64,000 bases of DNA from Diplonema papillatum (taxonomy: Eukaryota; Euglenozoa; Diplonemea; Diplonemida; Diplonemidae): NCBI GenBank assembly GCA_030068145.1, contig JAPJBO010000581.1:81561-145560 (forward strand), read 5' to 3'. The translations under genes were made by a program, and so were the position numbers. This document shows, one piece after another, positions 14,720-61,581 of the stretch. The notes under the pieces were generated by a model. The model worked only from the letters and a program-made list of their open reading frames with translations, did no database searches and was not told the origin of the DNA. The stretch's first letter is position 1; every line of letters starts with the position of its first letter.

Positions 14720-15766
14720 GAAGGCAAGTGTTGGGGTACTGTAGCAGTGTGCCGGGATCATTCAAGAACGTTGAAGTATGGCTAAAGATAAAGTGGTGTC
14801 ACCTGAGGGGGTAATCTCGGCGGACAGCCGCGGTCTTCGCTTTCTTGGCAACACGTCATGAAACAGCCAGAAATACCAGCGCCGCAGGCGCGGAAAATTT
14901 TCAAGCTATTGGGCCAGTCGCAGGTTCCAAAATTGAGGCTGTACGTTGCTTATCCAAAGGTGCAGTAACCGGTGCTGTGTACTGCTAGTGTGACTGCTGT
15001 ACTGCAGCACTACTACTGGGCCCCTCAGCCGGGGCATTCTGTGCTTTTTTTATTTTCGTTGCTCGGACCAGGGTATTAGTTTGAAGGCTTCCAGGGTTTG
15101 CAGATTTAGACCGTTACTATGGGGTGGTTTTGGGCCGTGTTTCGGTGCCGTTTTCGCCGATGTACGGCGTCTTGGGGCGGAGCCGACACATCTCCACAAC
15201 TTCGTTCGGCAAAAGAGGGGTCTTCATGGGTCCTTTAGGGTCAATTATGGTCACCCCGTCAGTTTGGCGACACATTTTGCGGGCGTTTTTTCAACCTACA
15301 CCAGTCTGGATCAAGCGTTTCGGGGGTTTCTGGATGCTTCTGGGTTCCCTGTGGGGTTGCGCTCCAAAAACAGTCAAAATCGTAAACAGACAGTCTCATC
15401 AGGCAGCTGAAGGGGGGTGGACCTGGGGACCTATTTTCCTATGATTCCTATGATAATAGGTCCACAGTTTTGGTGTGCGCCGCCGTACTTACAACAACAT
15501 TTTTAGCGTTATTTTTAGCAACATCGCGCCGAAGGCGCGACGGAAAATTTGGGCAAAAATAACTCCGCCCCCCTTTATCATACATGGGCAACTCTTAGCT
15601 CGTGTGGGATACTCAACTGGCAAACAGGACCTTGATCTGGTAATGAAGCACAGTGGCAGCTGCAACCTGCCGACCCAAAGCTGAACACAATTGAACGGCA
15701 GCGGCTGGGTCTCAGCAGCGGAGGCTCAGCAGCCTTCCGCTACAAACACCACACCCCCCGCCTATA

Positions 15767-16837
15767 CCGTCCCGCTCTTAATTTATGAATTTCTAATTTA
15801 TGAATACGGCCAAAAATAAATAATTATTCATAAATTAGAAATTCACTAAACAGGACCCCACAAATTAAAATCATGGCTTCCGTCCCTGAGCTCTTCAGGG
15901 CTGTTGACGAAAGGGCGCTTGACGACAGCGTTGTCGAACTTGGGAGTAAGCCGGCTACCGAACGAACGGTCCTTTCGGCGGATGAAATTCGGAAGCTGAC
16001 CTGGAGAAAACGGTGGGGTAGCACCATGGGGAAAATTACCCTACAAGCGCCACGTCAAGTACCAGTGCCTTGCTCAAGATATTGACCGCCTGAACCGTGA
16101 ATCCATCGTGTACTCATGGGCCGCCTCTGGTGTGCACCGAGCACTCGGTCTTCAGCAACCCGTGGACTCAAAAGGAGCCCCCATCACTGTCGTGTTTGAC
16201 AAGTACAAAGCCCTCTACGACGAGGAGAAAAACTGGGACAAGGATCTTGTCGAGACTGTTGAGGAGGAAGGCAATTCTGACATCACCTTGCCAATCTCAA
16301 GCCAAGAGATGGCCCCAGCGGCAGTGCCCGCGACACGTTCAACGCAGCCTGCTGCAAAGCCTCCGGGCAAACGCGGACCAGGGCGCCCTCCGTCGAAGGC
16401 GAAACCCCCTCCGAAGAATCAACCAACACTGAACTCTTTCTTCGCGAAGAAACGAACCCTCGAAGCGTGTGCTGAAGGCGAGCCTGAAGCGCAGAGGGTT
16501 AAGGACGAGTGAACTGGCAAGCCTTTCCCCCCTTTTCCCGCTAACGTTATCTCGGCCGTACTCTTCACCAACGGTTTTGCCCTGCAGCTAGCGAGTCTTT
16601 CGCCATTTTTCTTTTACGTTTTCGGCCTGACAACGTACCGTTCTGTCTGTACCGTACCGTCTGTACCGTACCGTGTACTGTACCGTCTGCTGTACCTCAG
16701 TTTCAAAATGTCGGGACGAAATTAATTAATTTCAGCCCAAAATCTTCGGGCCGATGAAAAAATAGTTATTCATAAATTAAAACCCCCGCTAATTAAGAGC
16801 GCGCGAATAAAGAGCCTATAAATTAAGAGCGGGACGG
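15767..16837 (+). mobile_element. pogo-like transposon, copy B (internal deletion derivative)
   Basis: Complete terminal repeats CCGTCCCGCTCTTAATTTA (left) and the inverse (right end 16837). The left flank is TA. The right flank is TT, whereas the empty paralogue at 23021-23040 reads CCTATATTTACTTTG, implying a TA duplication with one later base change. The interior keeps the transposase N-terminus (15873-) and C-terminus (to 16512) but lacks about 0.86 kb between GAAGCTGAC and CTGGAGAAAACGG. The 3' region contains a single GATAAC where copy A has the MITE. Confidence 0.85.
15873..16512 (+). pseudogene. Remnant pogo transposase in copy B
   Basis: The ATG at 15873 starts MASVPELFRAVDE, the same N-terminus as copy A, and runs to the deletion junction (ADEIRKLT|WRKRW), after which the frame is lost. 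The C-terminal frame resumes at about 16090 (LNRESIVYSWAASGVH) and ends at the stop after KDE at 16510-16512. It retains the AT-hook GPGRPPSK and the PIP-box QPTLNSFF (16420-16443). The catalytic core is absent, so this is a non-autonomous derivative. Confidence 0.7.
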
Positions 16838-17538: not shown

Positions 17539-18795
17539 ATGTCTACCATGTTGTGGGGCACCCCGTCGAGAAAGAGCAGGTTCTCGTATCCAAGCGAGCT
17601 CGCTGCAGCTTTCGAGCGGGTGACAGGGAGCAAACCCCTGAGAGGGGTGAAGCTGTTGACGGGCGAGGCGACCTCCTTCGTAAGGTCGCGGTTTTCACGC
17701 ACGGAGGAGACCGCGGTGCGCCAGCTGCGCGCCGTGGTGGCCGGGGTTCTGGGCGTGGAGGCGGCTGCGGTGTCGAGCCTGATGGGCTCCCGGCTTCTGC
17801 TGTCTTTCTGGCAGCTGCACAAGAAGGCACCGGAAGTGGTGGCGGCAGAAATGGCGCGTCTCAACATCGACTATGACACGGACCTGGAGGAGACGAGCGA
17901 GGAAGACGAGGAAGACACGGAGGACATCGAGGACGAAACGCCGATAGCCGGCGGCGTTGAAGATGCACACAGAACGGCCTCAGCAGGCCGCGGCACCGGT
18001 TTACGGCCCCCTGGAGTCCCCCACGCCCGACCCGTTTCCCGATCGCGCTCACCCCCCATCACGCCCCCCCCGGTTGACAACGCCATCATCGCTCTCATCG
18101 AGCGGATGGAGAAAGACCGCAAGGCCGAGATGGCCGAGCTGCGGGCTGAGATAGCCCAGCTGAAGAAGGCACCGCCAGCGCCGCGCGCGACACCGGACGC
18201 AGCACAGTCGCGCGCCAACTCCCAGGCCTCGGAAAACGGGGACGCTCTTCCCTCGGTCCGCGGAGGGGAGAGCGATTACTCGGAAGGCGGAATCTCGGTC
18301 GACGCCCCCCGCGAGACGGTGCTGCTCGACCCCGCTTTCTGGGTCAACATGGACCGCACGGAAAAGGCGGTGCTCCTAATGGAGCTCCGCCTCCACTTTG
18401 TGGTCCCCCTCACGAAGGCCCCTCACGAATCGGGGTTCCTGCTCGGCCAACTGGCCGAGCTTCTCACAGGCGTGGGAACCAGCAGTCCGGAGCAGGACGA
18501 GTTCGCAGTCCGCCTCGCGCGAAACGTTATCGTCCGCCTTCTTGTGCTAAAGACGGGGTACGAGGTGTCATGGGACGGTGCGCAGGCGGTAAGCGACACG
18601 TTTTTCGGCGCTCCGAAGGTCCCCGACTACCTGAAAAAGTCGATGGACGTTGCCGACACGTTTCGGAAGAAGAAACCGAAGCCCGAAACGACAACCACCA
18701 CCACCAGAGCGAACCAAGAGGGCAAAGGCCCATTTCGCCCCAGGGAAAAAGGCGCAAAGACCGGAAGCAAGACCGCCGCGAACAGCGGAAGGTGA
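17539..18795 (+). CDS. YR retrotransposon ORF1, gag-like
   Basis: 418 residues starting at the ATG 18 bp after A1. The N-terminus is globular (PSELAAAFERVTGSKPLRGV), followed by an acidic run (EETSEEDEEDTEDIEDE), a Pro/Arg linker and a short coiled coil (MEKDRKAEMAELRAEIAQLK). A second globular part (WVNMDRTEKAVLLMELRLHF) precedes a Lys/Thr-rich basic end (KKKPKPETTTTTTRANQ). There is no CCHC knuckle. By position and composition it is the presumed structural protein binding element RNA. The reading frame is complete with no stop, suggesting a recent insertion. The YR frame begins inside its 3' end. Confidence 0.8.
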   Translation: MSTMLWGTPSRKSRFSYPSELAAAFERVTGSKPLRGVKLLTGEATSFVRSRFSRTEETAVRQLRAVVAGVLGVEAAAVSSLMGSRLLLSFWQLHKKAPEVVAAEMARLNIDYDTDLEETSEEDEEDTEDIEDETPIAGGVEDAHRTASAGRGTGLRPPGVPHARPVSRSRSPPITPPPVDNAIIALIERMEKDRKAEMAELRAEIAQLKKAPPAPRATPDAAQSRANSQASENGDALPSVRGGESDYSEGGISVDAPRETVLLDPAFWVNMDRTEKAVLLMELRLHFVVPLTKAPHESGFLLGQLAELLTGVGTSSPEQDEFAVRLARNVIVRLLVLKTGYEVSWDGAQAVSDTFFGAPKVPDYLKKSMDVADTFRKKKPKPETTTTTTRANQEGKGPFRPREKGAKTGSKTAANSGR

Positions 18796-19814
18796 ACGGA
18801 AATGTCGTCTGCCCACCCTGCCCACCCTCGCACTTCCCTATCACAACCTTCTTGAAGGGGCTCGAGGCACCCGCAAAGTTGAAGCGCGGACGACCGGTGC
18901 TCGTCGAAGCGCCACCGTCAAAACAGGAGATGCGACGCGTCGAAGTTGCGGCGCGAAACCATCTGTCGCTTGCGCTCGCGAGCTCGACGTGGCGGTCCTT
19001 GGAGTCGACGCACCGACGTATGCTCCAGTTCAAGTGGAATTGGGAGTCCCGCTCGGAGCAGGAGATCGACGTCCCAACGGCTGTCGTTTTGTGGCTGACA
19101 AGGAAGATGCTGGGGGAGCCCGGGCGCGCTCCCATAGTGTGCTCGTCAGCGCTGCAGTATCTGCAGGACCTCAAGTCAGCCCAGCGCCGGGTTGGCGCGC
19201 CCATCAGCGACTCGCAGGTGGTGCGCGACTTCGAGAGGTCTCTACGGAGGCAGGGCGCTATGCGCCCGACGCGCCAGGCGGTCCCCGCTACGCACCAGGA
19301 CATCCAGAGGGTGCTCAGGAAGGAGGCGGGCTCACAGGTTGGGCTTGCGATAGCTCTTGCATGGGCGGGGGCCGCGCGGGTGTCGGACGTTACTCGCCTG
19401 ACGGTTGGGGACGTCTCCTGGGAGGACGGTTTCGTCGCTGTGAATTGGTCACAAACGAAGTCGGACCCTTTCCGTCTGGGTGTCACCACTGGTCTGGTGC
19501 TGTCGGAAGACTGGTCGGCCGAGCTTCGGCGGCATGTCGAGGGACGGCCTCCTGGGGAGCTGATCCTGTCCGTGTCATACGCGCAGGTGAAAGCGGCCCT
19601 GAAGCGGGCTCGGCCGGAGTTAACCGGCCACTCGATTCGCCGGGGGGCCCTGTTCCGCCTACTCCAGAAGGGGCTCCACTTGGAGGAGATACGACGAGTG
19701 TCGCGCCACAGCAGTCTGGATGCCTTGGTCCGGTATCTGCCAGCCGGGAAGCTGGCCGTGGCCCGCGAGACGGCGACTTCGTCGGGCCTCCTCGCCGTGA
19801 ACGTCCTCCCGTGA
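18570..19814 (+). CDS. YR retrotransposon ORF2, tyrosine recombinase
   Basis: 414-residue frame that overlaps the gag ORF by 226 bp. The conserved domain starts after about residue 85, so translation may initiate at 18570 or follow a frameshift near the gag stop. The catalytic-domain signatures are in order: GAARVSDVTRL (first Arg), TGHSIRRGA (H-x-x-R), VSRHSSLDALVRYL (the His/Trp position and the nucleophilic Tyr). The N-terminal part is helical, as in core-binding domains (STWRSLESTHRRMLQFKWNW). It would join circular cDNA to the target site without duplication. The frame is intact. It lies between gag and RT, not after RT as in DIRS1 and Ngaro. Confidence 0.9.
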   Translation: MGRCAGGKRHVFRRSEGPRLPEKVDGRCRHVSEEETEARNDNHHHQSEPRGQRPISPQGKRRKDRKQDRREQRKVNGNVVCPPCPPSHFPITTFLKGLEAPAKLKRGRPVLVEAPPSKQEMRRVEVAARNHLSLALASSTWRSLESTHRRMLQFKWNWESRSEQEIDVPTAVVLWLTRKMLGEPGRAPIVCSSALQYLQDLKSAQRRVGAPISDSQVVRDFERSLRRQGAMRPTRQAVPATHQDIQRVLRKEAGSQVGLAIALAWAGAARVSDVTRLTVGDVSWEDGFVAVNWSQTKSDPFRLGVTTGLVLSEDWSAELRRHVEGRPPGELILSVSYAQVKAALKRARPELTGHSIRRGALFRLLQKGLHLEEIRRVSRHSSLDALVRYLPAGKLAVARETATSSGLLAVNVLP

Positions 19815-21571
19815 AAAAGCCGATCCTCCCGCTCGCCCCGGCTTTTCCAAGAGTCCGGCGTCCCAAATACCATCACCTTTCTCCGTACGATCCCACGTCC
19901 CTTGAGACGGGGGGTCCTGACATCGCCTTTCCTTACAGCCAGGCGCTCTGCATCAGGACTACAGGCGGAAGTGTCTCGGTTCCCGCGGCGAAGGCGAGGG
20001 GGAAGCTGGCCCCGATCTCAACTTCTCGTCTTAACTTTGATGCGCTCGTTTGCCTGGACACAGAGGGCGTTCTAGTCGGCGTGCTGGACGTTATACGGTC
20101 TCGTGAGGCTTTTCTAGGGGCCATGCGCGATGGGGCGCGTCCCATCCTGGACGGAGACCCCGGGCTCCCGAGGGGGCTCTCTCGATTCATGCTGCGCCAC
20201 CTTCCGACGTTGGAGTCGTACGGCGTGGTGCGGGCGCGTACAGACGCCTGTGTGGTCTTGCCAGCTTTTACAGTTGAGAAGAAGTCCGGGGGGCTTCGTC
20301 TGGTCGCGGATGGCCGGAAACTCAACGCACTGATGAAGAAGCCCCCGGCCATGCTTCTTCCCGGCATCGACGATGTTGTGAGCAGGTTCCTCGCGTCGAA
20401 GTTTGTAGCGCAGGCGGATGCTGTGAGCTGGTTCTACCAGTTCCCCCTCGAGGAGTCGGTCTCGCGTTTCTTTGGCATGAACCTGTCTGGCCCAAGGGGT
20501 CGATTTACGAAGGTTCAGCTCTCCGTGATGTGCATGGGCTGGAACTGGGCCCCCTGTATAGCCCAGCGGACAGCGCGTGTCCTGTTGCCGGAGTCCGAAG
20601 GTGTGTGCTGGGTCGACAACTTCTTTGTGATTGGCACCTCGTACGAGGAAGCAGAGAGACGCTATCGGCGTTTTCAACACCGCTGCCAGCTGGTCGGCGC
20701 TGCCATGAATACTCATGACAGCATGTACGGACGCCCGCTCAGCCGTTTCGAGGCTCTCGGTCTCGAGTTCGATTTGGGGGTCGAGCCTTCTCGCTACCGA
20801 TCGGCGCCGTCGTGGGTGAAAAAGTTCCTAGGGGGCGAAGCCCTCGCGCCGGTCATGGGCGGGAGTGCGACACCCCGGCAGGTTTTTACTGTGTTCGGCG
20901 GCGTGGTTTGGTTCTTGTTCTCGACCAGGCGACGACTCTGTTTTCTGCGTTCGGCGATGGCTTTTCTGCGCCGGGCGGCATCGCTTTTGGGGGAAGGCAC
21001 GTGGTCGTGGGATGACACGTACGACGTCCCCTCCTCAGCCCTGTATGATCTGCGGTCGGTGCTCGCGGACCTGTCGAGAAACGAATGGGTAACAGAGGTC
21101 GACAGGGACCGGCGTCGTTTACTTGCTTGGTCCGACGCTTCGGACAGCGAGTGGGCAGTGGTTCTCGAGACTCGCCCGGAGCTCGCCTATCAGGGGGTTC
21201 TCTTGGACCCATCGGTCCATATATACCTGAAGGAGCTGCTGGCTGCGACGCAGGCGGTCTGGTTCGCATCTCTAGAGGCTCCGGGGTCTTTTCTCGTCCT
21301 GAAGGTTGATAACCAGGCAGCTGTATTCGCTCTGAAGAAGGGGCACAGCAAGAATTTTTGGGCAAACGAAGTCCTGTGCCTGTTTTTCAAGATCGTGGAA
21401 TCTGCGGGCCTCATCATTGACGTTGTCTGGGTGCCCACAGACGTGCAGCGCGCGGACAAGTACACGCGAGGGTGTAAGGCTTTTCCCGGTTCCGGACTCC
21501 TCCTGAGAGATCGGATTGGGGGGTTCCACGCCTCACCGGCCTTCGTCTCTTGGTTCCTGGGCACGTGCTGA
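19814..21571 (+). CDS. YR retrotransposon ORF3, reverse transcriptase-RNase H
   Basis: The frame is formally open from 18650, but the conserved part begins after the YR stop, with first ATGs well inside; a frameshift or reinitiation is likely. RT motifs include FTVEKKSGGLRLVADGRKLN, QADAVSWFYQFPLEE (motif A Asp), VQLSVMCMGWNWAP (motif B) and CWVDNFFVIG (motif C). Motif C has Asp-Asn where YxDD is usual (codons 20615-20620). The RNase H-like domain shows LAWSDASDSEW, KELLAATQA, LKVDNQAAV and VPTDVQRADK, supplying D-E-D-D. The frame is intact to the TGA at 21571, and B1 follows at 21648. Confidence 0.9.
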   Translation, partial: KKPILPLAPAFPRVRRPKYHHLSPYDPTSLETGGPDIAFPYSQALCIRTTGGSVSVPAAKARGKLAPISTSRLNFDALVCLDTEGVLVGVLDVIRSREAFLGAMRDGARPILDGDPGLPRGLSRFMLRHLPTLESYGVVRARTDACVVLPAFTVEKKSGGLRLVADGRKLNALMKKPPAMLLPGIDDVVSRFLASKFVAQADAVSWFYQFPLEESVSRFFGMNLSGPRGRFTKVQLSVMCMGWNWAPCIAQRTARVLLPESEGVCWVDNFFVIGTSYEEAERRYRRFQHRCQLVGAAMNTHDSMYGRPLSRFEALGLEFDLGVEPSRYRSAPSWVKKFLGGEALAPVMGGSATPRQVFTVFGGVVWFLFSTRRRLCFLRSAMAFLRRAASLLGEGTWSWDDTYDVPSSALYDLRSVLADLSRNEWVTEVDRDRRRLLAWSDASDSEWAVVLETRPELAYQGVLLDPSVHIYLKELLAATQAVWFASLEAPGSFLVLKVDNQAAVFALKKGHSKNFWANEVLCLFFKIVESAGLIIDVVWVPTDVQRADKYTRGCKAFPGSGLLLRDRIGGFHASPAFVSWFLGTC

Positions 21572-24146: not shown

Positions 24147-25649
24147 TCCACACAACCCACCACCTCCAAACCTGCCACCTGTGTAAAGAGCGTGGGTGAA
24201 GGGTATGGAGTAAATTAGTGTCAGAGGTAATATCAGGGCCGTTCACGTGATGAAGCTGTTGAGCACTGGGAACTTTTAACACATGGATCAGCATGCACAG
24301 CAAGCCGTTGAGCAGCGGCTGCCGGATTATCCCTTGACAGCTTTGTAGCATTCTTTGAGATTTGAAGGCCCACAGATACCCCGAACGACTACCTGGACTA
24401 CTGAACATCGGATTGTCGGTATCGATTTCCATCAGATCCGACGCCCGAATTACCCATCGCAGATGAGCGGTCCAAGTAAGCTCATCCTCCCTGCAGGGAA
24501 CTTAGCAGAAAGAGTAAAGCCACCCCAATGTTGGCACCCTACCTGTTTTTTTGTTTTTTTTTTTTTGTTTTTTTGCTGTTTTTTTGCTGTTTTTTTGCTC
24601 TGGAGATTTGTGTTTGTTTGCCTGGCGATCTGCTGGTGCACTCCTGCTGGCTCGGGTCTTCCACGTGCAGGACAGTGGTCTGGTGAGGTGGCATTCGAGT
24701 GTATGTGTGTTTTTTCAGAAGCTTGTGACAAGACAATTAGTGCACAAGGCGGGACACGTCTCTTGTCAAGTCATCAATGCCTCCAAAACATGCTGGAGGG
24801 AGAGCTGAGTGCTGGTCGAAGGCACACTTCGAGAGGATAGGTACTGCGTTGGAGCTGAAGTGGAAATGCAGCGTATGACAAGACAATTAGTGCACAAGGC
24901 GGGACACGTCTCAAGGAACATCTAAGGGCTTGTGATCCATAGGATGCATGTTACATTCACGCAAGTACTTTTTGCACTTATGAGCACTGTCCTGTAGGTA
25001 AAGCAAAGCGCAAAAAGTCATAACAAGATGCCAAGGAAAACTTGCTGGGCCCAGGTACATCAGAAATGCTGAATGCGTGCAGAGGGAGCCGGCTGAAGCT
25101 CAAATTAGCACGGAGTGGTTAGAGAAACAACACAGAGAAACGACGCCTAACTTTCCTGAGCATTTTCAATGATTTGGTACGAGTAGAATGCTGTGGCACC
25201 CTAAAACCAACAGCAGCAAAGGAAATCTACAAAACGGTAACAAAATGTAGCGAGACTTTTGGCCGCCAGGCTGCAAACCTGAAGAACTGCTACTGTTACA
25301 TGGTGCTTGTATTTTATTGTATTTTATTGTATTTTATTGTATTTTATTGTATTTTATTTTATTTTATTTTATTCAGGCTGAGTCAGTGTATTTTATCTTC
25401 CTTGCGGGGGAGGGAAGGGAAGGGTGCTCGGCGCGGGAAGTCACTTCCCAGCGAGAGAGTCACTTCCCAACGAGAATTACACCTGTTTGTGTCGATTGCG
25501 AAGCCAACGAAGGCTTTGGCCGGATTTAGCTGACATAAACCTCCAGTTAAATAGTGGTTAAATAGTGGCCAAATAGTACGAGTCACCCAGAAAGTTTGGG
25601 GGGGGTGTACTTCTAGCTTTTTCAGGAAATATCTGATGATTTTCACCTA
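24147..25649. other. Upstream region of the NEK gene with low-complexity tracts
   Basis: No supportable gene. It contains a T-rich tract (24543-24600), a 37-bp direct repeat (TGACAAGACAATTAGTGCAC...) at 24726-24762 and 24876-24912, exactly 150 bp apart, and a (TTTTATTGTA)n/(TTTTA)n microsatellite at 25306-25375. The promoter of the leftward NEK gene would lie in its left part, but no motif stands out. Confidence 0.5.
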
Positions 25650-25899
25650 CCGTCCCGCTCTTAATTTATGAATTTCTAATTTATGAATACGGCCAAAAAT
25701 AAATAATTATTCATAAATTAGAAATTCACTAAACAGGACCCCACAAATTAAAATCATGGCTTCCGTCCCTGAGCTCTTCAGGGCTGTTGACGAAAGGGCG
25801 CTTGACGACAGCGTTGTCGAACTTGGGAGTAAGCCGGCTACCGAACGAACGGTCCTTTCGGCGGATGAAATTCGGAAGCTGACCTGGAGAAAACGGTGG
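25650..25899 (+). mobile_element. pogo-like transposon, copy C (truncated)
   Basis: It starts CCGTCCCGCTCTTAATTTA after TA and continues with the same N-terminal coding segment (MASVPELFRAVDE) and the same deletion junction as copy B (GAAGCTGACCTGGAGAAAAC). It stops at ACGGTGG (25899), where the palindrome array begins. The rest of the element is not found beyond that array. Confidence 0.85.
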
Positions 25900-26056
25900 A
25901 GCACGAGCTAGTTATATAAATAGCTCGTGCTAGTTATATAACTAGCTTGTGCTAGTTATATAACTAGCTCTGCTAGTTATATAACTAGCTCTGCTAGTTA
26001 TATAACTAGCTCTGCTAGTTATATAACTAGCTCTGCTAGTTATATAACTAGCTCCT
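25900..26056. repeat. Left array of 21-bp palindromes (element P1)
   Basis: Seven or eight units of TAGCTC(T/GTG)CTAGTTATATAAC. Each contains the perfect palindrome GCTAGTTATATAACTAGC. The outer units carry CTCGTGC or CTTGTGC spacers and the inner units CTCTGC. The right array repeats this order in mirror image. Confidence 0.9.
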
Positions 26057-26259
26057 AGGGTATTTTACGGGTGAAATGCATTGAAATACACCATCACTAA
26101 ACAGCTACCACAGCTCGAAAGACACAAAATAACAAGAAAACAGCAGCCTCGCAGGGAATGTGCCAGCAGGACCAAGAAGGGAAGTGTGTTGTTACAAACT
26201 GAGGCCGTGGAAAATCAGAATGTTCCACACGATACTTCGTCTGATGCACTCCTATGAAT

Positions 26260-26390
26260 GTGTGGACGCAGAAACTCTGCGGGCACATGGGAACTAACTG
26301 CCGAGAACCGGGCGCGACTGGGACTATCACTCAACGCATGCGCAGAGCGGATACGGATCGTGAAGGAAGAAACTGGGTTGCTATGCGCCG
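26260..26390 (+). pseudogene. Decayed duplicate of the ORF2 5' end inside element P1
   Basis: GTGGACGCAGAAACT through GAAGGAAGAAACTGGG is a close but frameshifted copy of 27878-28000, the start of the zinc-finger ORF (MDAETVRAIGKII). It lies upstream of ORF1. A GGTATTTTACGG-containing segment is likewise repeated at about 26061 and 26451. The left end of P1 thus carries a second, dead 5' end, perhaps from nested insertion or tandem recombination. Confidence 0.7.
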
Positions 26391-26524
26391 AGGCTGCCGC
26401 ATCGTGGCTCCTATTATGCAAATTCTCTCACTTGTAACTTGCTCCTCATGGTATTTTACGGAGAAATGCACTGAAATACTGCCCACTGAACGGCGACCAC
26501 AGCTGATATACACGAATAATCAAA

Positions 26525-27556
26525 ATGAGCAAGCGCGCACGTGAGACAAAGGCGAAGACACCCGAGAAGAAGAAGCAGAAGTCCGGCGACTTGGAGCCGG
26601 ACGCGAATGCCAAGACGGACGCGAACATCGTGGAAGACTTCGTGGAGTTGTTTTTGATGGTAAAGGAGGGAGAGGAGGTCCAACACGTGCCTTTGAAGGC
26701 ACTGGTGGGACAGCTTTTTGGTCTCTCGTTGTCAACGAAGAATGGCATCCTCGGCAAGGCTATTGCCGCAAAGTTTCCTGCGCTCAAGGCGCTGAAAAAC
26801 CAGACCCAAACAATTGGCTCAAAACTCTATTCGCTGCGGGTGAAAATGAACACCGACTTGGTGTTCCGCGGTGTCGGGCTCCGCAAAAAGCTGACGGCCA
26901 CGGCGAAGGACTCGGAGGCGTACCACCGATTGAAGGCGGCTACGGTAGGCGATGTCAACCTGGAAACGGTTGACTTGCCGTCCTTATACAAGTGCAAGAC
27001 GGCATCGGGGGCTATTACTCCCGCTGCTGCTGTCACAGGGACTCGCAGAAACAAGTGGCCGGACATCACTGTCCTGGGGAGGAAACAGGTGCGCGAAGAG
27101 GGTGTGGACGTCACCTACTTCTGCATCGTTATCGAAAGTGGGTGCAGTGTCGTGTCGACTGTGCACCCACCGACGCTGACAGGCAACCGGCTGGATTTCA
27201 CGTTTCTTCGTGAACGTCCGTCGGAGCACTGTGAGGCTGGTTTGTACACCGGAAGCTACACCCTCCCTCCAGACGTCATGATCGACAGTGTCCGGCCCCT
27301 GCAGGTCCGGGGGGCTAGCGGGGGATTTGCAACCTTTGTGAACTTTCCCCTGTCGAGGAAGAAACATAGCGTGAGCCTGCAGCCCGGTGACTGGCGCAGC
27401 AATCCAGATGTCGTGGGGCTTTTCTCCGACTCGGGGGACGACGCTGATGGCATCGAGGATGAGGACGACGACGACAAAGACTCTCAAATCAAAGCCGACG
27501 TGGAGGATGATCCTGATGCCAGCGACAATGAGAGCGTGACGTTTGTTCCCAACTGA
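26525..27556 (+). CDS. Element P1 ORF1, unknown protein with acidic C-terminus
   Basis: 343 residues from ATG (MSKRARETKAKTPEKKKQKS). A basic N-terminal nuclear-localisation-like stretch is followed by a helical part (VEDFVELFLMVKEGEEVQHV), a central region predicted to be beta-rich (VDVTYFCIVIESGCSVVSTV, TGNRLDFTFLRE, FATFVNFPLSRKKHSVSL), and a strongly acidic tail (DSGDDADGIEDEDDDDKD). I recognise no domain. It is co-oriented with and 321 bp upstream of the zinc-finger ORF, within the same palindrome-bounded unit, so it probably serves that element. An intact frame suggests recent activity. It could alternatively be cargo. Confidence 0.65.
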   Translation: MSKRARETKAKTPEKKKQKSGDLEPDANAKTDANIVEDFVELFLMVKEGEEVQHVPLKALVGQLFGLSLSTKNGILGKAIAAKFPALKALKNQTQTIGSKLYSLRVKMNTDLVFRGVGLRKKLTATAKDSEAYHRLKAATVGDVNLETVDLPSLYKCKTASGAITPAAAVTGTRRNKWPDITVLGRKQVREEGVDVTYFCIVIESGCSVVSTVHPPTLTGNRLDFTFLRERPSEHCEAGLYTGSYTLPPDVMIDSVRPLQVRGASGGFATFVNFPLSRKKHSVSLQPGDWRSNPDVVGLFSDSGDDADGIEDEDDDDKDSQIKADVEDDPDASDNESVTFVPN

Positions 27557-27877
27557 AAACCTTTTTGTTTTTGCAGCACCAAAATCAGATCATCCTTTTT
27601 ATTTTGTACTCCGTTTTTTGAGCAAACCAAGGTACAGGCACATCACATACCGGTAAGCAACATTGACACTTTGCGGGTTACGTAAGCAACTTTTAAAACT
27701 TCGCTGGTCACAACAGTTTTTGATGAGTAGGATGCGGTCTTCCAGGTTCCTCGTAGGGAAGTGTCGAACGAGGAAGGAAATTTATTGTTAGAACCAGACC
27801 ATGGATACCACTTGAAATCTTCCGCAGGACAAAAAAAATACTCCATTCTTTCCTGGCCAGCTTACACTCTTAAGAAG

Positions 27878-29716
27878 ATGGACGCAGAAACTGTGCGGGC
27901 AATTGGGAAGATAATAGCCGAGAACCGGACGCGATTGGGACTATCACTCAACGCTTGCGCAGAACTTGGACGGATAGTGAAGGAAGAAACTGGGATTGCG
28001 ATGGGGCTGTCGCAATCGGTCGTGGCCAAGGCCGGCGAAGACTTCAAGCTGATGGCAGGTAGGGCCCTGGGGAATATCGCGGAATCCCTCCAGTTTTTAT
28101 TGCGCAAATTTCCGTTCAAGACGTGTAGGGAGGCTCCCTCCGTGATTATATTCATGGACGCGTACAACACGGGGAATGCCTTTCGCTCTCGGAGCTCCAG
28201 GCAGCGGCTGGCCATCTCCCTCTCGGCTGGGAGGACTGCGACACGCTTTCTTACAGTTTGTGACAAGCGAAAGCCGCAGTTCCACGAATGGTGGATATTC
28301 AACGCCTTGCCGCAGCTGACGCAGATTCAGACGGGCAGTTTCAGCAAAGGGAAGCACGCAGCCTCTGTACAGCTGTTTCGCTTCGGCGGGGATCATGCGG
28401 AGCTGTGGTCGCTGTTCAGTGGTGTTGGCGGTTCTGGCCATCGTAGTGCGTTTTGTACGACGGCTGCCGGTGACTGGCTAGAGCAACTGCACGCCTGCGA
28501 GAGGCTCAGCCTGCAAGAGATGCATGCAGCCGGCTATACATGCCACATCGCGCAACGGTTCCTGCAACCGTGCTTCACGATGACCCCGGCCCTGCACGAC
28601 GTGAAAGGGATGATACGCCTCATTGTGCAGACGCTTCCGCACGCAGCAGGGATAGAGCTCGCTGTCATCGGCAGCATTGGCAACAACATGACAGGCTCCC
28701 AAGCACGCAAACTGCTGGCTGCCCTGATAGCGCAAACGCAAGGGAACCAGTTGACACTGTGTTCCCTCATGGATGTTCTCGTGTTCTTTCGCTATCAGGA
28801 CATACCTGTGCGCTTCTTTTACGCAGACACTCCAGACAGCCAAATTGTGAAGTATTTTTTGTTCAGTTTACTGAGCTACCACGCACTCATCTTTGTGCTG
28901 GAGTGGGCCAATCCCGGAGTCACTCGTTCAGCTTATGCCCACAGTATGAGTCACTGGTTTGATGTTCAGGATGCCCATCGGTTGGTGACATCTGATGAAG
29001 CGTTCGAGCAGATGAATGGTGAACGCAAACGATGGGTGGCGTGCACGTCTCAACAGACGATGGAACGTGACTTGCAAGTGTGCGAGCTTCAGCACAAACA
29101 CTTCGACAAAAAAGGTCAACGCACTCCACTACCGGAGCTTACACCCCCCGCAGCAGGAATACCGAGACTATTTGAGTACGACACTTTTCATTTTTGCATC
29201 TGCATTGTTCACAGGGGGAAAAATGCCACGACAAACTTAGTTGCGCGTCTCAAAAATCTGGGCCTTGGTGCGCACGTAGGTCGCAGAACGCGCTGGGGAA
29301 TAAAATTCAATGCGACCCCGGGTGTTGAAACTAGTGAAATAATGTTTTGCGTTTGTGAGGAAGCCCCCTGGAAGCTTCGTCCTCCTGAGAGAGAGAAAGA
29401 CAGCGCCGAAGTGGCTGAATCGGAAAGCAGTGATAGCAGTGAAGGCGAGGCGCACTCTTGTATCATATGCGGAAGGAGCTTCAGTCGGGTGTACGGTCTG
29501 TACGCACACTACGACTCTCAGCACCGCCCTGCCGTGACATGTGAGTGCAAGGAAGACTGTCCCGCCTGTGCGAAGTCTGTACTAAAACGTGGCTTGAGCC
29601 AACATATCTTGTACAACCATGCAAGTCTACTGACAAAGACGAAGTGTCCTCTGTGTCTTGAGAGCTTTTCCTCCGCAAGACTAAGAGACTCGCACATGAA
29701 GAAACGCCATCTGTGA
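27878..29716 (+). CDS. Element P1 ORF2: large putative transposase with three C-terminal C2H2-type fingers
   Basis: 612 residues from the ATG at 27878 (MDAETVRAIGKIIAENRTRL). The frame is open from 27761, but only via a non-ATG start. Landmarks shared with the relative at 59.9-61.5 kb are GGDHAELWS..G.GHRSAFC, LHDVKG, an N-x-TG-x-QAR-x-LL stretch, FRYQD(I/M)PVRFFY, EWANPGVT(R/H)SAYAHSM and GERKRW. IIFMDAYNTG and FGGDHAELW supply Asp residues that might belong to a DDE-type RNase H fold (inference). The C-terminus has CIICGRSFSRVYGLYAHYDS, CECKEDCPAC with QHILYNH, and CPLCLESF with HMKKRH, three zinc fingers likely to bind DNA. No family name is recognised. Confidence 0.65.
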   Translation: MDAETVRAIGKIIAENRTRLGLSLNACAELGRIVKEETGIAMGLSQSVVAKAGEDFKLMAGRALGNIAESLQFLLRKFPFKTCREAPSVIIFMDAYNTGNAFRSRSSRQRLAISLSAGRTATRFLTVCDKRKPQFHEWWIFNALPQLTQIQTGSFSKGKHAASVQLFRFGGDHAELWSLFSGVGGSGHRSAFCTTAAGDWLEQLHACERLSLQEMHAAGYTCHIAQRFLQPCFTMTPALHDVKGMIRLIVQTLPHAAGIELAVIGSIGNNMTGSQARKLLAALIAQTQGNQLTLCSLMDVLVFFRYQDIPVRFFYADTPDSQIVKYFLFSLLSYHALIFVLEWANPGVTRSAYAHSMSHWFDVQDAHRLVTSDEAFEQMNGERKRWVACTSQQTMERDLQVCELQHKHFDKKGQRTPLPELTPPAAGIPRLFEYDTFHFCICIVHRGKNATTNLVARLKNLGLGAHVGRRTRWGIKFNATPGVETSEIMFCVCEEAPWKLRPPEREKDSAEVAESESSDSSEGEAHSCIICGRSFSRVYGLYAHYDSQHRPAVTCECKEDCPACAKSVLKRGLSQHILYNHASLLTKTKCPLCLESFSSARLRDSHMKKRHL

Positions 29717-29974
29717 GGGGAGAGAGCGGTGTTAGCTTTGTTCTCCGACCATCTGTCTCCTTCTACAGCTCTGTAAAGCATTTCTGTTCAGATCGATTAC
29801 CTCAAGACGCTTCTTGCTTCACCGTTCCGCTAAGGTGAACACAACGAAGAGACAACCGAGACAGCCGAGCAGATAGCAGAAAAAGCGGGCCAGGATACCT
29901 AGTCCGAGTGATATACACGTCCTTTTTGACTCAACTCAATGCAGTTTCACTGTATTTCACTGGTTATTCTGCTG

Positions 29975-30145
29975 GGAGAGCTAGTTATATAACTAGCAGA
30001 GCTAGTTATATAACTAGCAGAGCTAGTCATATAACTAGCAGAGCTAGTTATAAAACTAGCACGAGCGTTATATAACTAGCTCGTGCTAGTTATAAATTTC
30101 ACTAGTCATTGAGCTAGTTAATAACTAGCAAAACTCCATAACTAG
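29975..30145. repeat. Right array of palindromes (element P1)
   Basis: GAGCTAGTTATATAACTAGC units in mirror order to 25900-26056. The inner units have AGAG spacers and the outer units CACGAGC. The terminus matching the left end is at 30087, after which two more degenerate units (to about 30145) follow. Confidence 0.85.
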
Positions 30146-30772
30146 TGCGTCGTGTAGGCAAAAAAACAAATCCTGGAGCAAAAAAACAGCAAAAAAAACA
30201 AAAAAAACAAAAAAACAAGAGGACTAAGCTTATCGGAAGCACTTAAGTCGGGAAAATATATATCGGAACTGCTTCCGTTATATATTTTTCTGCTTCCGTT
30301 ATATATTTTCTGCTTCCGTTATATATTTTCAAGCTTCCGTTATATTTTTCCCAGCTTCCGTTATATATTTTCCAGCTTCCGTTATATATTTTCCAGCTTC
30401 CGTTATATATTTTCCAGCTTCCGTTATATATTTTCCAGCTTCCGTTATATATTTTCCAGCTTCCGTTATATATTTTCCAGCTTCCGCTATATATTTTCCA
30501 GCTCCCGTTATATATTTTCCAGCTTCCGTTATATATTTTCCAGCTTCACTATATATTTTCCAGCTTCCGTTATATATTTTCCAGCTTCCGTTATATATTT
30601 TCCAGCTTCCGCTATATATTTTCCAGCTTCCGCTATATATTTTCCAGCTTCCGTTATATATGCTATGTTCTGATAAATATTGGAGTGTTTCCATAAGTCA
30701 CCACACAGAAATGCAGGCCCAAAGTCACCGGAGAAAGCCTAACTAGAGAAACAAAAGAGGAACAGCAACAGG

Positions 30773-46236: not shown

Positions 46237-49200
46237 TCAGTAGGGCCTGCACGAGTTGTTGATCGGGGAGACGAGACGAGTGGCAACCGGGGACCGCGGC
46301 GCGAGGGATGCGAGGGTGGAACGGATGGAGTCGAGGTCGGCTTGGATGGTCGACGTATACTGCGTGTTGGCCGGGACGTGCGGGTTGTGCGTGGGCTCGA
46401 GCCGCCGCTGGGCGAGGGCGGACCGGCGGGGGAGGGTGTGGTGCTGCGGGGAGTGGTGCGCGGCCGCGGGCGGCGGGCCTTGCGACAGCGGGACCGAGTC
46501 GTTCGCCGTGCGGACGGCGCGGGGGCTGATTTCGCGGTACTCGCGCTGGTCCTTCGGCGGGTTGTCGAGGGCCGCGTGGGACGGCAGCTTGCCCATCGAG
46601 TACCCGCCGCCGGCAAGGTTGGGCGCTGCTCCGCTGAGCGGGTACGACCTTCGCTCTGGTTGCGCCGAGGGTGCTGCCGCCGCCATTTTATGCCGCTCGT
46701 ACTCCATCTGTTCTTCGCGCTCGCGAAGCCGCGCGCGGCGGGCGAGCATGCGATCGCTTTGCTCGTCTCGTGCCACTTGTGCCAGTAACAGGCCGTCGTT
46801 GCGATCGACAACAACGGGTAACGGAGGCGGGAACTGCACTCTCCGCTCGGGCTCGAGCCTTCGCAAAAGGGAGCTCTGCTCGTGGTCGGCCATCAGTGAC
46901 TCGTGGTACACAACGCGGCCTTCTCTTTCGATAAGGTCCTGCTCTAACCTGACCGACTGCGCGTTCTTCGTTTGCAGCGTGTTCTCCAACCTCCGAACCT
47001 CGGAGTCTTTGAGCTCGAGTTCGCGTGCCCTGAGCGACAAATCTTCGCTTTGCCGTTCGATGGCCCGCCGCATCTCCCGGATGTCGTCTTCCGCCCTGAT
47101 TATCTCTTCAGCTTGCATCCGCGTGTTCAGCTCCTTCTTCGCGATGTCATCGAGACTGTCCGTGAGGCGAGCTTGCATCACCTGCGTGGGGATGGGTCAG
47201 AAGTGGGACATAGGAATGCAAGAAACAGGGTCGGTTTTGTCCTTGTCGGTTGACGTATCATATGGGTACATCAGGCATTCTGTGGAGTGCGCGGTGTGTG
47301 TGCATGTGGATTCGCGCCAGTGACCGATTCGAAAGTGAAGCTCCCCTTCAGCGAGTAACCATTTGTTGTGTTTGTGAGGCGTAAGGACGTTGCTGCTCTG
47401 TTGCTACACGAGCGGGCTCTGGGCGGTGATGAACCTTTCACCCACAATTCGCCTCGTTTGTGTGCGTTGCTTGGGTGGATGCGATGCGATGACGCGGAGT
47501 GCTGCTAAGCTGCCGTCGTTGCGGTGACCCGTGCAAGAGTTGTTTGAAACAACGGCCCATATTTGACTACGGCTTCGAAGCGGCCCGTGCGCTGCTAGGA
47601 CCGCCGAATTGGATGAATTGAGAATCAAATCTCACCGATCCTTGGTTGAACTCTGAGGGACGTAGCACGGTTTCCAACTCGTCGGGACTCAAGGAAGCCA
47701 CTGCAGACGACCTCCAAGCAGACAGTGGAACAGGCATGCTGGTTATAACATGTGTAGCGTGAGGAAAGCTGCAAACCTTCAAGTCATGCTCGCGCGCGTC
47801 GAGGTCCGCCTCCCGTTCGTTCGCCCTGCGGAAGCGCGCGGCCACCTCTTCTTCTAGAGCAGAGAGCTGCCTCCTCCGACCTTCGTCGTCCATGTCCTTC
47901 CTCTTCAAATCGTCTTCGGCTTTCGTTAGCAGAACCTCGCGCTCACCGTGGGCAGCGAGTTCCAGGGCCAAGCGCTGCTGTTGGCTGACTTCTTTGTCGT
48001 TCAGCTGTGTGGTTAGATTAATGTGTTGGCTGGGTTTCCGTCTCTCGCGTACAAACAGGAGCTTTCTGCCCGGTATGTAAACCCCCCCGTCGCTTAATAT
48101 TTACATTTTTCTAATATTTGCATTCTCTTAATATTTACAAAATGCTCTTAATATTTACAAAATCTCTTATTATTTACATTTTCTTAATATTTACATTTTC
48201 CATTTTTTTATTTTGACGAGCAACTTTCCTTCCTGGGAGTACCTGCTGCACGAGCTTTCTGCAGTGCCGTGCTCCACGTGGCGGCCGCCAACTTCATCTT
48301 TGCAGTATTCTAGCGTTATTTGTGGATTAGAAGGTCGGTTCTGTTAAACGTGCACGCTTCTTGGCACCATTGTTCTCCCTGCGTCTCTTTCAGCTGCTGG
48401 TCTCTCCAGGGGTTACGGGCATCGAACACAAGATGTTTGATATCTCACCAGATAGTGAACTTCCGAAGCCGTCGAAGACACCGGCTGCTTCTTGCTCGGC
48501 CCGGACAACGGATAATCTGGCCCGTGATGCCAGTCCCTCGAAGGCGTCTTCACCTTCTCCAGTGTCTTCGTCCGATACGATGGAGCTTGCACACGAGCAC
48601 TGCAAACGCCATCTTCCCGTGATGGCAGGTCAGTCATTTCTTGGGGCTGCTATGGTGAGATTTCGGGTTTTGTAAATATTAAGGGCAGAGTCTCATAATA
48701 TTTACAAAACCTCATAATATTTACAATGCTCATAATACATACTATGCAGTCCGCCGCATTCCGCCCGACTTACACGGACTAAAAATACTCCCACACGGAC
48801 TTACACGGAATCGGGGTGAGTCCGTCTGGGGTGCGGGTGGGGTGCGGGTGAACGTTTTCCAATGAAAATACTCAGTATCCTTAGTATTGCTTCGTATTCT
48901 TAGTATTTCTATTCTTGCACATAACAGTCGTTGCGAACTTGGTCATTGCGGTTGCGGAGACCAGCAGCAAGAACACAGGAAACAAACACACAACTTCGAA
49001 GGGGGGGGGGGATGGGAAGGCCTAAGGGCTCGAAAAACAAGGCGAAGGCCGGCAAGTCTGAACCGTCCAACAAGAAGAGAAGGGTGACAATGAGCCAGGC
49101 CATGCAGGATGCGGAGTCCAGCAGCGAAGCACCGACTAGCGAAGCACCGAACAGTGAAGCACCGACCAGCGATTCCGAAGGTGGCTCGTCCGTCCCGATG

Positions 49201-59504: not shown

Positions 59505-59625
59505 GGGGGGGAGTACATGTACTTGTCATAATATGACGAGTACTATGACAAGCATGTACTTGTCATATGACAAGTACGTACTTGTCATATGACAAGTACC
59601 TACTTGTCATGTGACAAGTAAAACA
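59505..59625. repeat. Array of TACTTGTCATATGACAAGTA palindromes (element P2 end)
   Basis: Five or so units of a 20-bp perfect palindrome or its variants (CATGTGACAAGTA, CATAATATGACGAGTA) in tandem. It lies about 290 bp beyond the stop of the P2 zinc-finger gene and is directly comparable to the palindrome arrays of P1, with unrelated sequence. Confidence 0.9.
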
Positions 59626-59912: not shown

Positions 59913-61500
59913 TTAAATCGTGTGTTCGTCGCTCATGTGCTTGTCCCGTTCCCTTAGAGAACGAAAGGTTCGGAGGCACAGCGGACAAGTTTTCTTATTC
60001 AGCTTCTCTGGATGCATGTACAGTAAGTGTTGACTAAAGCCGAGTGTCCCGACTCGCTTGTTGCAGAACGGGCAGTTCTGCCTGCACTCGCATGTAAAGG
60101 AGGGCCGATGGTAGGCATCATAATGTGCATACAAACCCCTGATGCTCGAAAAGCCTGTCTTTCGGCACATGCAACAAAATACTTCTGCTTCCTCGGCTTC
60201 CTCGGTACTGTCCTCTGCTTCAGCCGCACCCTCTGCTTCACGCCACGGTGTTTCTCCACAAACACACACCTTCAGAAATGCTCCTTCGTCTGGCGGGCTA
60301 CCCAAATACTTCTGACCCCACCCTGTTTTTTTGCCGATGTGTTCGCTCAAGCCCAGGTTGCGAAGTCGAGTCTCCAACTTCTGGGTGGCCTGTTTCCACA
60401 GGTCGTCAGCCCGTACACAAGTATATTGTGTCGTACGTCAGAATTTCCGGGACATACTCGGAAACTGGTGGAAGAGACGGCGGACGAAGCGGTTTCAGTT
60501 GAACATCAACATGTTTGGTCTGGAGTTCGAAGGATAACATGTCGTGTTCGAATGTTTGTTGGGAAGTGTGGGAAGCCCATCGCTTCCTTTCACCATTGCC
60601 TTGCTCAAAGCTTTCATCGGACACGCTCAACCTGTGAGCATCTTCACGGTCAAACCAGTGTTCCATGCTATGCGCATAAGCTGAGTGTGTCACGCCTGGG
60701 TTCGCCCATTCCAGAAGAAATACTAGCACGTGATAGCACACCACACTGAAAACAAACTCCTTTTTATGCGTTGCTCCATAGAAAAACCTGACTGGCATGT
60801 CTTGGTACCTGAAATATATCAGGACATCCATTGCACAGCAAAGCAGGTGTTGATTGCCTGTTGTCTGTGCGAGAAGGGCTCTGAGTAAGTCGCGAGCTTG
60901 GCCACCAGTAAAGTTCGCATCACTGCCAAGCACCGAAGTTTGAAGGGTCTGAGCTCCAGGAATGGTCCTAATTATCAACTTCAAGACCCCTTTCACGTCA
61001 TGCAGCACCGGCGTTACGGTGTAGCACGGGGAACTAAATCTAGCTGCAACAGGGCAATCGAAGCCAGATTCGTGCATTTCTTGCACACTCAACCGAGGGC
61101 AGCAATGCAAGTACCTGAGTCTGTCCTGTAAGGGGGTGCTACAAAATGCACTCCTATGGCCAGTGCCTCTGACGCCACGAAAGAAAGACCACAATTCAGC
61201 ATGGTCGCCACCAAGCCGGAACGTATTCAAAGACAACCGTTTTTCACCCTGGTAGAACGTCCCGTTCTCGATGAAGCAAAGAAAGAGGTGACTATTCGCG
61301 GTGTTCGAGGTTTGCAGGTACCCCCTTGCGAACAGGCTTCTGGTGGTGCGGACACAGGCTCGGGCGGTGCTGCAGCTTCTGTTCGCGGGATCTTGAAAGC
61401 TGCCCCCTCGAGGAAGTTGGTAAGCTGCTGAACACCTTGCGGAGGGGCCTTGCGCTTTGCAACCATTCCTTTGTTGACCGTCTTTTGGCTGGAGCTCACA
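59913..61500 (-). pseudogene. Element P2: degraded relative of the P1 zinc-finger protein
   Basis: The minus-strand piece 60406-61280 encodes FYQGEKRLSLNTFRLGGDHA, GTGHRSAFC, LHDVKGVLKLII, NFTGGQARDLLRALLAQTTG, FRYQDMPVRFFY, EWANPGVTHSAYAHSMEHWF and GERKRW, all colinear with P1 ORF2. A frameshift near 60400 is followed by 59913-60390 with NLGLSEHIGKKTGWGQ and three zinc fingers (CCMCRKTG..H.DAYH; CECRQNCPFC..QHLLYMH; CPLCLRTF..HMSDEH). The N-terminal region (61280-61500) is out of frame or unrelated (MVAKRKAPPQGVQQLTNFLE). The conserved residues shared with P1 are listed in the P1 entry. Its far end is cut off by the non-LTR element starting near 61500. Confidence 0.75.
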
Positions 61501-61581
61501 CTATCAAATTTCGTCTTGAGTGGGGTTGGTACCTTGCCCCGAAGAGTGGGACACCTTACCATGTGGCGTGGAAAATTCTGA

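Follow-up and report, generated by a model that had tools for sequence, protein, structure and literature searches.

A recently active DNA transposon lineage with mirror-image palindrome arrays in Diplonema papillatum

Introduction

What kind of mobile DNA carries its genes between mirror-image arrays of one perfect palindrome? The question is raised by P1, an element at positions 25900..30154 (plus strand) of a 64-kb stretch of the Diplonema papillatum genome (contig JAPJBO010000581.1, positions 81,561 to 145,560; hereafter the window). P1 holds two open reading frames (ORFs) on the plus strand: ORF1 (26525..27556), for a 343-residue candidate accessory protein with an acidic C-terminal tail, and ORF2 (27878..29716), for a 612-residue candidate transposase whose C-terminus carries three C2H2-like fingers; a program-made ORF list extends the ORF2 frame upstream to a GTG at 27761. 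An earlier note, made from the sequence of the window, had seen in the two intact ORFs and the palindrome arrays bounding them a candidate new group of DNA transposons. Both frames are indeed open, and Tandem Repeats Finder and a palindrome scan recovered the arrays. We find that P1 belongs to a real, recently active lineage, undescribed as far as our literature searches reach. In our judgement P1 is likely to be an autonomous and very recently active DNA transposon of this nameless lineage, working by the mechanism proposed below, in which dimers bind the palindromes.

Results

A search of 271.4 Mb of the genome (2910 contigs) for ORF2 gave at least 81 matches; 72 of 728 candidates were scored, and the counts are lower bounds. 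At least 16 full-length copies encode an ORF2 protein identical to that of the window, at least 15 form a family B at 65–66% identity to P1 ORF2, and at least nine, with equal scores, form a family C at 56% identity; matches beyond these full-length groups are broken or partial. The stretch that spans ORF1 and ORF2 (3192 bp) has the same length in 15 other copies, each of which matches the window copy with at most 1 difference; in L046 it is 2 bp shorter. Identical ORF1 proteins are on record from 12 contigs. The P1 family has therefore spread very recently.

Where does the element end? We fetched 20 genomic stretches (L numbers), dropped L047, which lacked the anchor, and compared the remaining 19 with the window copy, giving 20 rows. 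The copies share the termini 5'-CACGACGCAC … GTGCGTCGTG-3'. Both ends are present in 16 of the 20 rows, the left as CACGACGCACTAGT (in L049, CACGACACACTAGT) and the right as ACTAGTGCGTCGTG; for the window copy, L033, L035 and L041, only one of the two could be located. Measured in L038, the left palindrome array begins 79 bp from its terminus; measured in the window copy, the right one begins 66 bp from its own. The earlier note had placed the ends of P1 at the arrays themselves. Arrays do lie at both sides, but they are subterminal: the other copies extend by these 79 and 66 bp to common termini, on the right, the window copy ends at 30154 rather than 30087, and on the left it has lost its end.

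The same comparison defines the window copy. Its right terminal inverted repeat (TIR), ACTAGTGCGTCGTG, is intact at 30141..30154 (plus strand) and is followed by TA (30155..30156), the place of the target duplication whose left partner is lost here. At the left junction (25899/25900), the 79 bp seen in other copies, including the left TIR, are replaced by a piece of another repeat. The adjoining 25648-25899 is identical over 252 bp to 15765-16016, which also sets the junction. The right half of this flanking repeat does not adjoin P1, so that the window copy yields no empty site, and we dropped it as a source of a target duplication. The flanking repeat has a third place at 7181-6945, and its 15.8-kb copy resembles an internally deleted form of a longer element at 5.3-7.2 kb.

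P1 insertion duplicates 2 bp of target. A dinucleotide (TA, TG, CA, CC, TT or AA) is repeated on either side of 15 of the 16 P1-family copies in which both ends are present. As L039 and L040 have the same flanks, these amount to 14 of 15 sites. Random re-pairing of flank dinucleotides gives agreement in about 1/4 of cases, and three flanking bases agree once only among the 16 rows, in L031. In family B the duplication is present in six of nine copies (L028 has no left end in its stretch; L023 seemed rearranged and was excluded). Empty sites were sought with 22-bp joined-flank queries, skipping those dominated by runs; the L036 query was too short. Exact empty sites were found for L040 (in L034, L042 and L045), L045 (in L034 and L040) and L027 (in its own satellite), and sites with 1–3 mismatches for L031, L032, L034, L039, L042, L043 and L044; the L043 match, which has 3 mismatches and falls inside the L043 locus itself, is weak. 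The genome-wide search for copies, ends, duplications and empty sites that the earlier note had called for supports a multicopy DNA transposon group.

The ends are conserved between families. P1 and family B share a terminal decamer and have CAC..GTG ends. Family C also finishes in GTG on the right, with GCACCGTG in both copies that we read, and two copies of a further family, that of the P2 element described below, are alike up to …AAGTACGTGGTGC, with a right-end GTG as far as the divergence point shows.

Shortened forms move as well. One in-frame internal deletion, joining residues 1-249 of ORF2 to 548-612, is common to at least seven places: L048, L049 and L050 (at C27, C220 and C438), and C120, C486, C618 and C708. 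L048, L049 and L050 each have separate flanks and a 2-bp duplication; internally deleted derivatives have also moved. Such derivatives could encode residues 1-249 plus the last 65 residues of ORF2, possibly as a repressor-like product. An exact 31-mer from the left end of P1 occurs at 58 genomic places (its reversed control at none), and 36 of these have no listed P1-type ORF2 match within 12 kb, as expected if derivatives moved in trans.

What does ORF2 encode? Pfam models zf-Di19 and zf-C2H2_4 match above cut-off and the Cys and His columns of three fingers are conserved, in agreement with the three C-terminal fingers originally read from the sequence. The view that ORF2 falls in no named superfamily also stood: Pfam names none, and matches in PDB cover the finger region only. 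Among 5.8 billion proteins, ORF2 has at least seven relatives, plus an eighth by profile, at 47–51% identity, one of them from a EukProt transcriptome; each search scored the 8000 candidates that had the most words in common with the query. No relative was found in phage records, IMG/VR contigs or GTDB genome contigs. Likewise, the P1 array sequence was not found in IMG/VR, and the window has no Rfam match. Among the members covering each position, several residues do not vary: (i) D94 in IIFMDAYNTG (5/5) and D172 in GGDHAELW (6/6); (ii) E374, E377 and E382 (8/8); (iii) H355-x3-H359 (8/8), between D172 and the glutamates; and (iv) H188 and C193 (6/6). A C(2)C motif is absent from seven of the eight members; the one CLLC, in P0001, is unaligned, and the motif is not conserved. 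An RNase H-like fold with D94 and D172 as its aspartates would fit these residues, and the order of hydrophobic stretches around both can be read as such a core. ORF2 may thus be a DDE-type transposase using D94, D172 and one of E374, E377 and E382. We found no relation between ORF2 and an ORF at 48931-51408, which has a weak match to the hAT dimerisation domain (E = 0.0017, below the Pfam cut-off).

Both genes of P1 are under purifying selection. Between P1 and family B, ORF2 is 66% identical over 609 codons, with non-synonymous (dN) and synonymous (dS) divergences of 0.28 and 2.25 and 170/123/331 differences at codon positions 1/2/3; ORF1 is 47% identical over 326 codons, with dN 0.49, dS 1.93 and 124/107/199 differences. 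Could ORF2 nevertheless be a passenger finger protein, in an element moved by another protein, for example in trans? The DDE fold of ORF2 is a reading of its sequence, and the 36 of 58 left ends that lie apart from any listed P1-type ORF2 match point to many copies without the gene. However, ORF2 is kept better than ORF1 between families, it is present in every family examined with its acidic residues invariant, and Pfam names no other enzyme in P1. We regard a passenger ORF2 as very improbable.

The palindromes themselves follow a strict pattern. GCTAGTTATATAACTAGC has eight exact occurrences in P1 (six left, two right); none of the other perfect palindromes of at least 14 bp in the window, which total 26 with this one, is repeated as often. 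The left array (25907..26054) comprises 7.0 and the right array (29977..30094) 5.6 units of 21 bp; most spacers read TCT in the left array and AGA in the right one, so that the two mirror each other. Each other family has its own palindrome: ACTTGTTATATAACAAGT in family B, ACTTGTCATATGACAAGT in the P2 family and ACTAGTAAATTTACTAGT in family C, where 21-bp units with an unpaired centre, CACTTGTAAATTTTACAAGTG, stand alongside. When the four are compared, four of nine base pairs differ, each difference is mirrored in the other half-site, and 36 of 36 cells are paired. One 18-mer was chosen per family, so that pairing within each family row is not informative; no shuffle of 500 reached 100% pairing, and slid registers gave 22–57%. 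The proposal that palindrome structure is kept while its sequence diverges thus extends to four families. The P2 palindrome had been taken to be unlike that of P1; its letters do differ, but the two are related and set apart by mirrored changes.

Mirrored half-site changes between families are as expected for dimer-binding sites. We therefore favour palindromes that would serve as dimer-binding sites rather than as cruciforms. Alternatively, the palindromes could act as DNA structure, in hairpins or cruciforms, or the arrays could be mere slippage products: the number of exact units varies between copies (3–8 left, 2–5 right in the 20 rows), and perfect inverted symmetry would equally serve a hairpin. 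Yet several half-site positions are fixed while the other symmetric letters vary by family, which suits sequence recognition, and slippage alone would not keep the half-sites symmetric when they change. These two arguments are not decisive, and we consider structure or slippage unlikely.

Do P1 elements choose their targets? Across 31 sites (19 from P1-family rows, L040 being excluded, 10 from family B and two from family C), a G or C run of at least 8 lies within 40 bp of the insertion in 25 of 54 flanks and at 24 sites. The background is 28 of 1334 windows in far parts of the same flanks and 6 of 1599 in the 64-kb window; the pattern was first noticed in the same data used to count it. In a 60-bp zone around P1 and family B insertions (L040 included), 24 of 25 runs lie 2–14 bp away and one at 22 bp. 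The empty sites for L039/L040, L042, L044 and L045 already carry the run, which therefore was not made by insertion there.

A host repeat with several G/C runs, including GGCAACTGCACTGTAG and GGCTATTTTCACTGTGG, has been struck repeatedly by P1 (flanks L031, L032, L034, L039, L040, L042, L044 and L045). Closeness to runs could hence be a by-product of inserting into one abundant, run-rich repeat. Among the P1-family sites, at least seven lie in its copies, and eight fresh one-sided left flanks had a run in only two cases. On the other hand, insertions within the repeat strike several positions near different runs, sites of families B and C also have runs, and almost all distances fall in a narrow part of the search zone. 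We hold the by-product explanation to be rather doubtful. If placement beside G/C runs holds genome-wide, it amounts to a target choice, for which a full-text literature search found no parallel.

What is the mechanism of P1 transposition? We propose that ORF2, as a DDE-type enzyme, would cut next to CAC/GTG and join the ends to the target. A homodimer of ORF1, of the ORF2 fingers or of both would bind each palindrome, one protomer per half-site; each array would load several dimers, and dimers on the two mirror arrays would help to pair the ends. The insertion target would be a dinucleotide, usually TA or TG/CA, often located a few bases from a pre-existing G/C run. As support for a lineage built on one plan we count its co-resident families, together with the TIRs, mirror arrays, two genes under selection, 2-bp duplications and mobile derivatives. 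Besides the host-repeat sites and the fresh flanks, several observations weigh against this account: flank dinucleotides disagree in L036 of the P1 family (TG/TA, with two bases before the contig end) and in L024, L030 and L026 of family B; outside the fingers ORF2 has no Pfam or PDB match, bar weak sub-threshold ones; and no ORF1 homologue was found outside this genome.

P1 also contains traces of its own past. A relic of the ORF2 start lies upstream of ORF1 (26247..26401, plus strand; 80% identical to 27865-28014), and a second internal repeat, at 26045-26153 next to the left array, matches 26435-26539. At 75–80% identity, the two repeats appear to stem from an old internal duplication.

P2, the second member in the window, was correctly described as frameshifted and lying beside a palindrome array. 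Its ORF2 homologue is split on the minus strand between two frames, a central part (60406..61236, 58% identical to P1 ORF2) and a finger part (59913..60377, 47%), with an array of TACTTGTCATATGACAAGTA units at 59544..59620 recovered by Tandem Repeats Finder and the palindrome scan. Over 276 codons, P1 and P2 differ 103/63/178 times at codon positions 1/2/3. Matches to the finger part elsewhere (for example C906:86214-86693 and C41:175046-175525) often fall in open reading frames some 250 residues long, far shorter than ORF2; there may be short families with fingers only. Just past the truncated P2, ~61560-62500 reads as reverse-transcriptase-like sequence.

Other repeats populate the window. 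Two similar, foldback-like elements (30219-~32790 and 34976-~37290) have ends formed by 21-bp tandem arrays (GCTTCCGTTATATATTTTCCA) in inverted orientation and include a fragment that we take to be MULE-like transposase. At 17539-21571, ORFs interpreted as encoding a tyrosine recombinase and a reverse transcriptase presumably belong to a DIRS/VIPER/TATE-like element.

Discussion

P1 lends itself to direct testing, being an intact family that has many identical copies, defined ends, a 2-bp duplication and a compact candidate transposase of 612 residues. Families that share a terminal decamer within one genome and differ in their palindromes amount to a natural experiment in the joint change of specificity of a transposon and its binding protein. 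The lineage is possibly a new superfamily; literature searches, which did not extend to Repbase, found no comparable element.

How does P1 compare with known transposons? Tc1/mariner elements invariably duplicate TA, which does not fit the TG, CA, CC, TT and AA duplications also seen in P1. Foldback and MULE-type elements carry tandem arrays in inverted orientation at their ends, as P1 does; P1 differs in its palindromic units, which lie inside separate conserved termini, and in its 2-bp duplication. Kyakuja-Dileera-Zisupton elements likewise have a large eukaryotic transposase, and the GERKRW…STxxM region of ORF2 is, we assume, similar to theirs.

Kyakuja-Dileera-Zisupton duplications are 7 or 8 bp long, against 2 bp in P1 (PMC12730594). 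Dada resembles P1 in its subterminal inverted repeats and C-terminal zinc finger and differs in its 6- to 7-bp duplications, lack of TIRs and fixed RNA-gene targets (PMC3706591). The 2-bp duplications of PlavakaA and the TA duplications of ESTA resemble those of P1, but PlavakaA ends in TGT..ACA rather than CAC..GTG, and ESTA duplicates TA, where P1 also has TG, CA, CC, TT and AA (PMC12730594). Chapaev shares the termini 5'-CAC and GTG-3', with 3- to 4-bp instead of 2-bp duplications (PMC4079192).

Is P1 then a true, highly diverged member of the CACTA-Mirage-Chapaev-Transib (CMCT) group, in which H188…C193 takes the place of C(2)C and H355-x3-H359 that of H(3-4)H? P1 has the 5'-CA..TG-3' termini (as CAC..GTG) and a duplication, of 2 bp, within the 2- to 5-bp range of that group; the histidine pair is invariant in all eight members, and H188 and C193 in the six that cover them. 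As in Transib and RAG1, an H-x(3-4)-H precedes the last glutamate, and blocks of ORF2 resemble ALHxxxG and MxGxxARKL of RAG1. However, C(2)C is missing, no CMCT model is among the Pfam matches listed up to E = 10, and the profile match to Transib/RAG1 is not significant. Three tests of a relation through the RAG1 blocks gave no significant support: RAG1 was not detected by hhalign, it ranked 81 of 714 sequences reported in a hidden Markov model search, and its second-best block was reached by 8 of 200 shuffles; the best block, ERKRW, is out of order and we take it as chance. Transib duplicates 5 bp, which is not seen in P1. Membership is quite possible, if short of probable. We do not file P1 there, with C(2)C absent and no sequence similarity detected; CMCT is nevertheless its nearest known kind, by its CAC..GTG ends, short duplication and H-x3-H. 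Should the fold prove RAG/CACTA-like without C(2)C, the clade would be widened, with bearing on the origin of its zinc site.

Within CMCT, the closest parallels are with CACTA/EnSpm elements such as plant Spm/En and Tgm. P1 differs from them in its arrays of complete palindromes, its C-terminal C2H2 fingers on ORF2 and its lack of C(2)C; its duplication is 2 bp rather than the 3 bp of Tgmt, and Pfam detected no similarity of ORF2 to Tnp2-type proteins. What the two have in common are CAC..GTG ends, a short duplication, two proteins, deletion derivatives, and conserved terminal repeats next to family-specific subterminal repeats (PMC2613891, PMC12730594), a variation of subterminal repeats under a constant TIR that also speaks for CMCT membership (PMC2613891). 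The subterminal repeats of CACTA elements are bound by TnpA (PMC2613891), to which we liken the proposed pairing of P1 ends by array-bound dimers. ORF1, present and conserved in family B, would by analogy be the possible counterpart of TnpA, with a candidate role in binding the palindromes.

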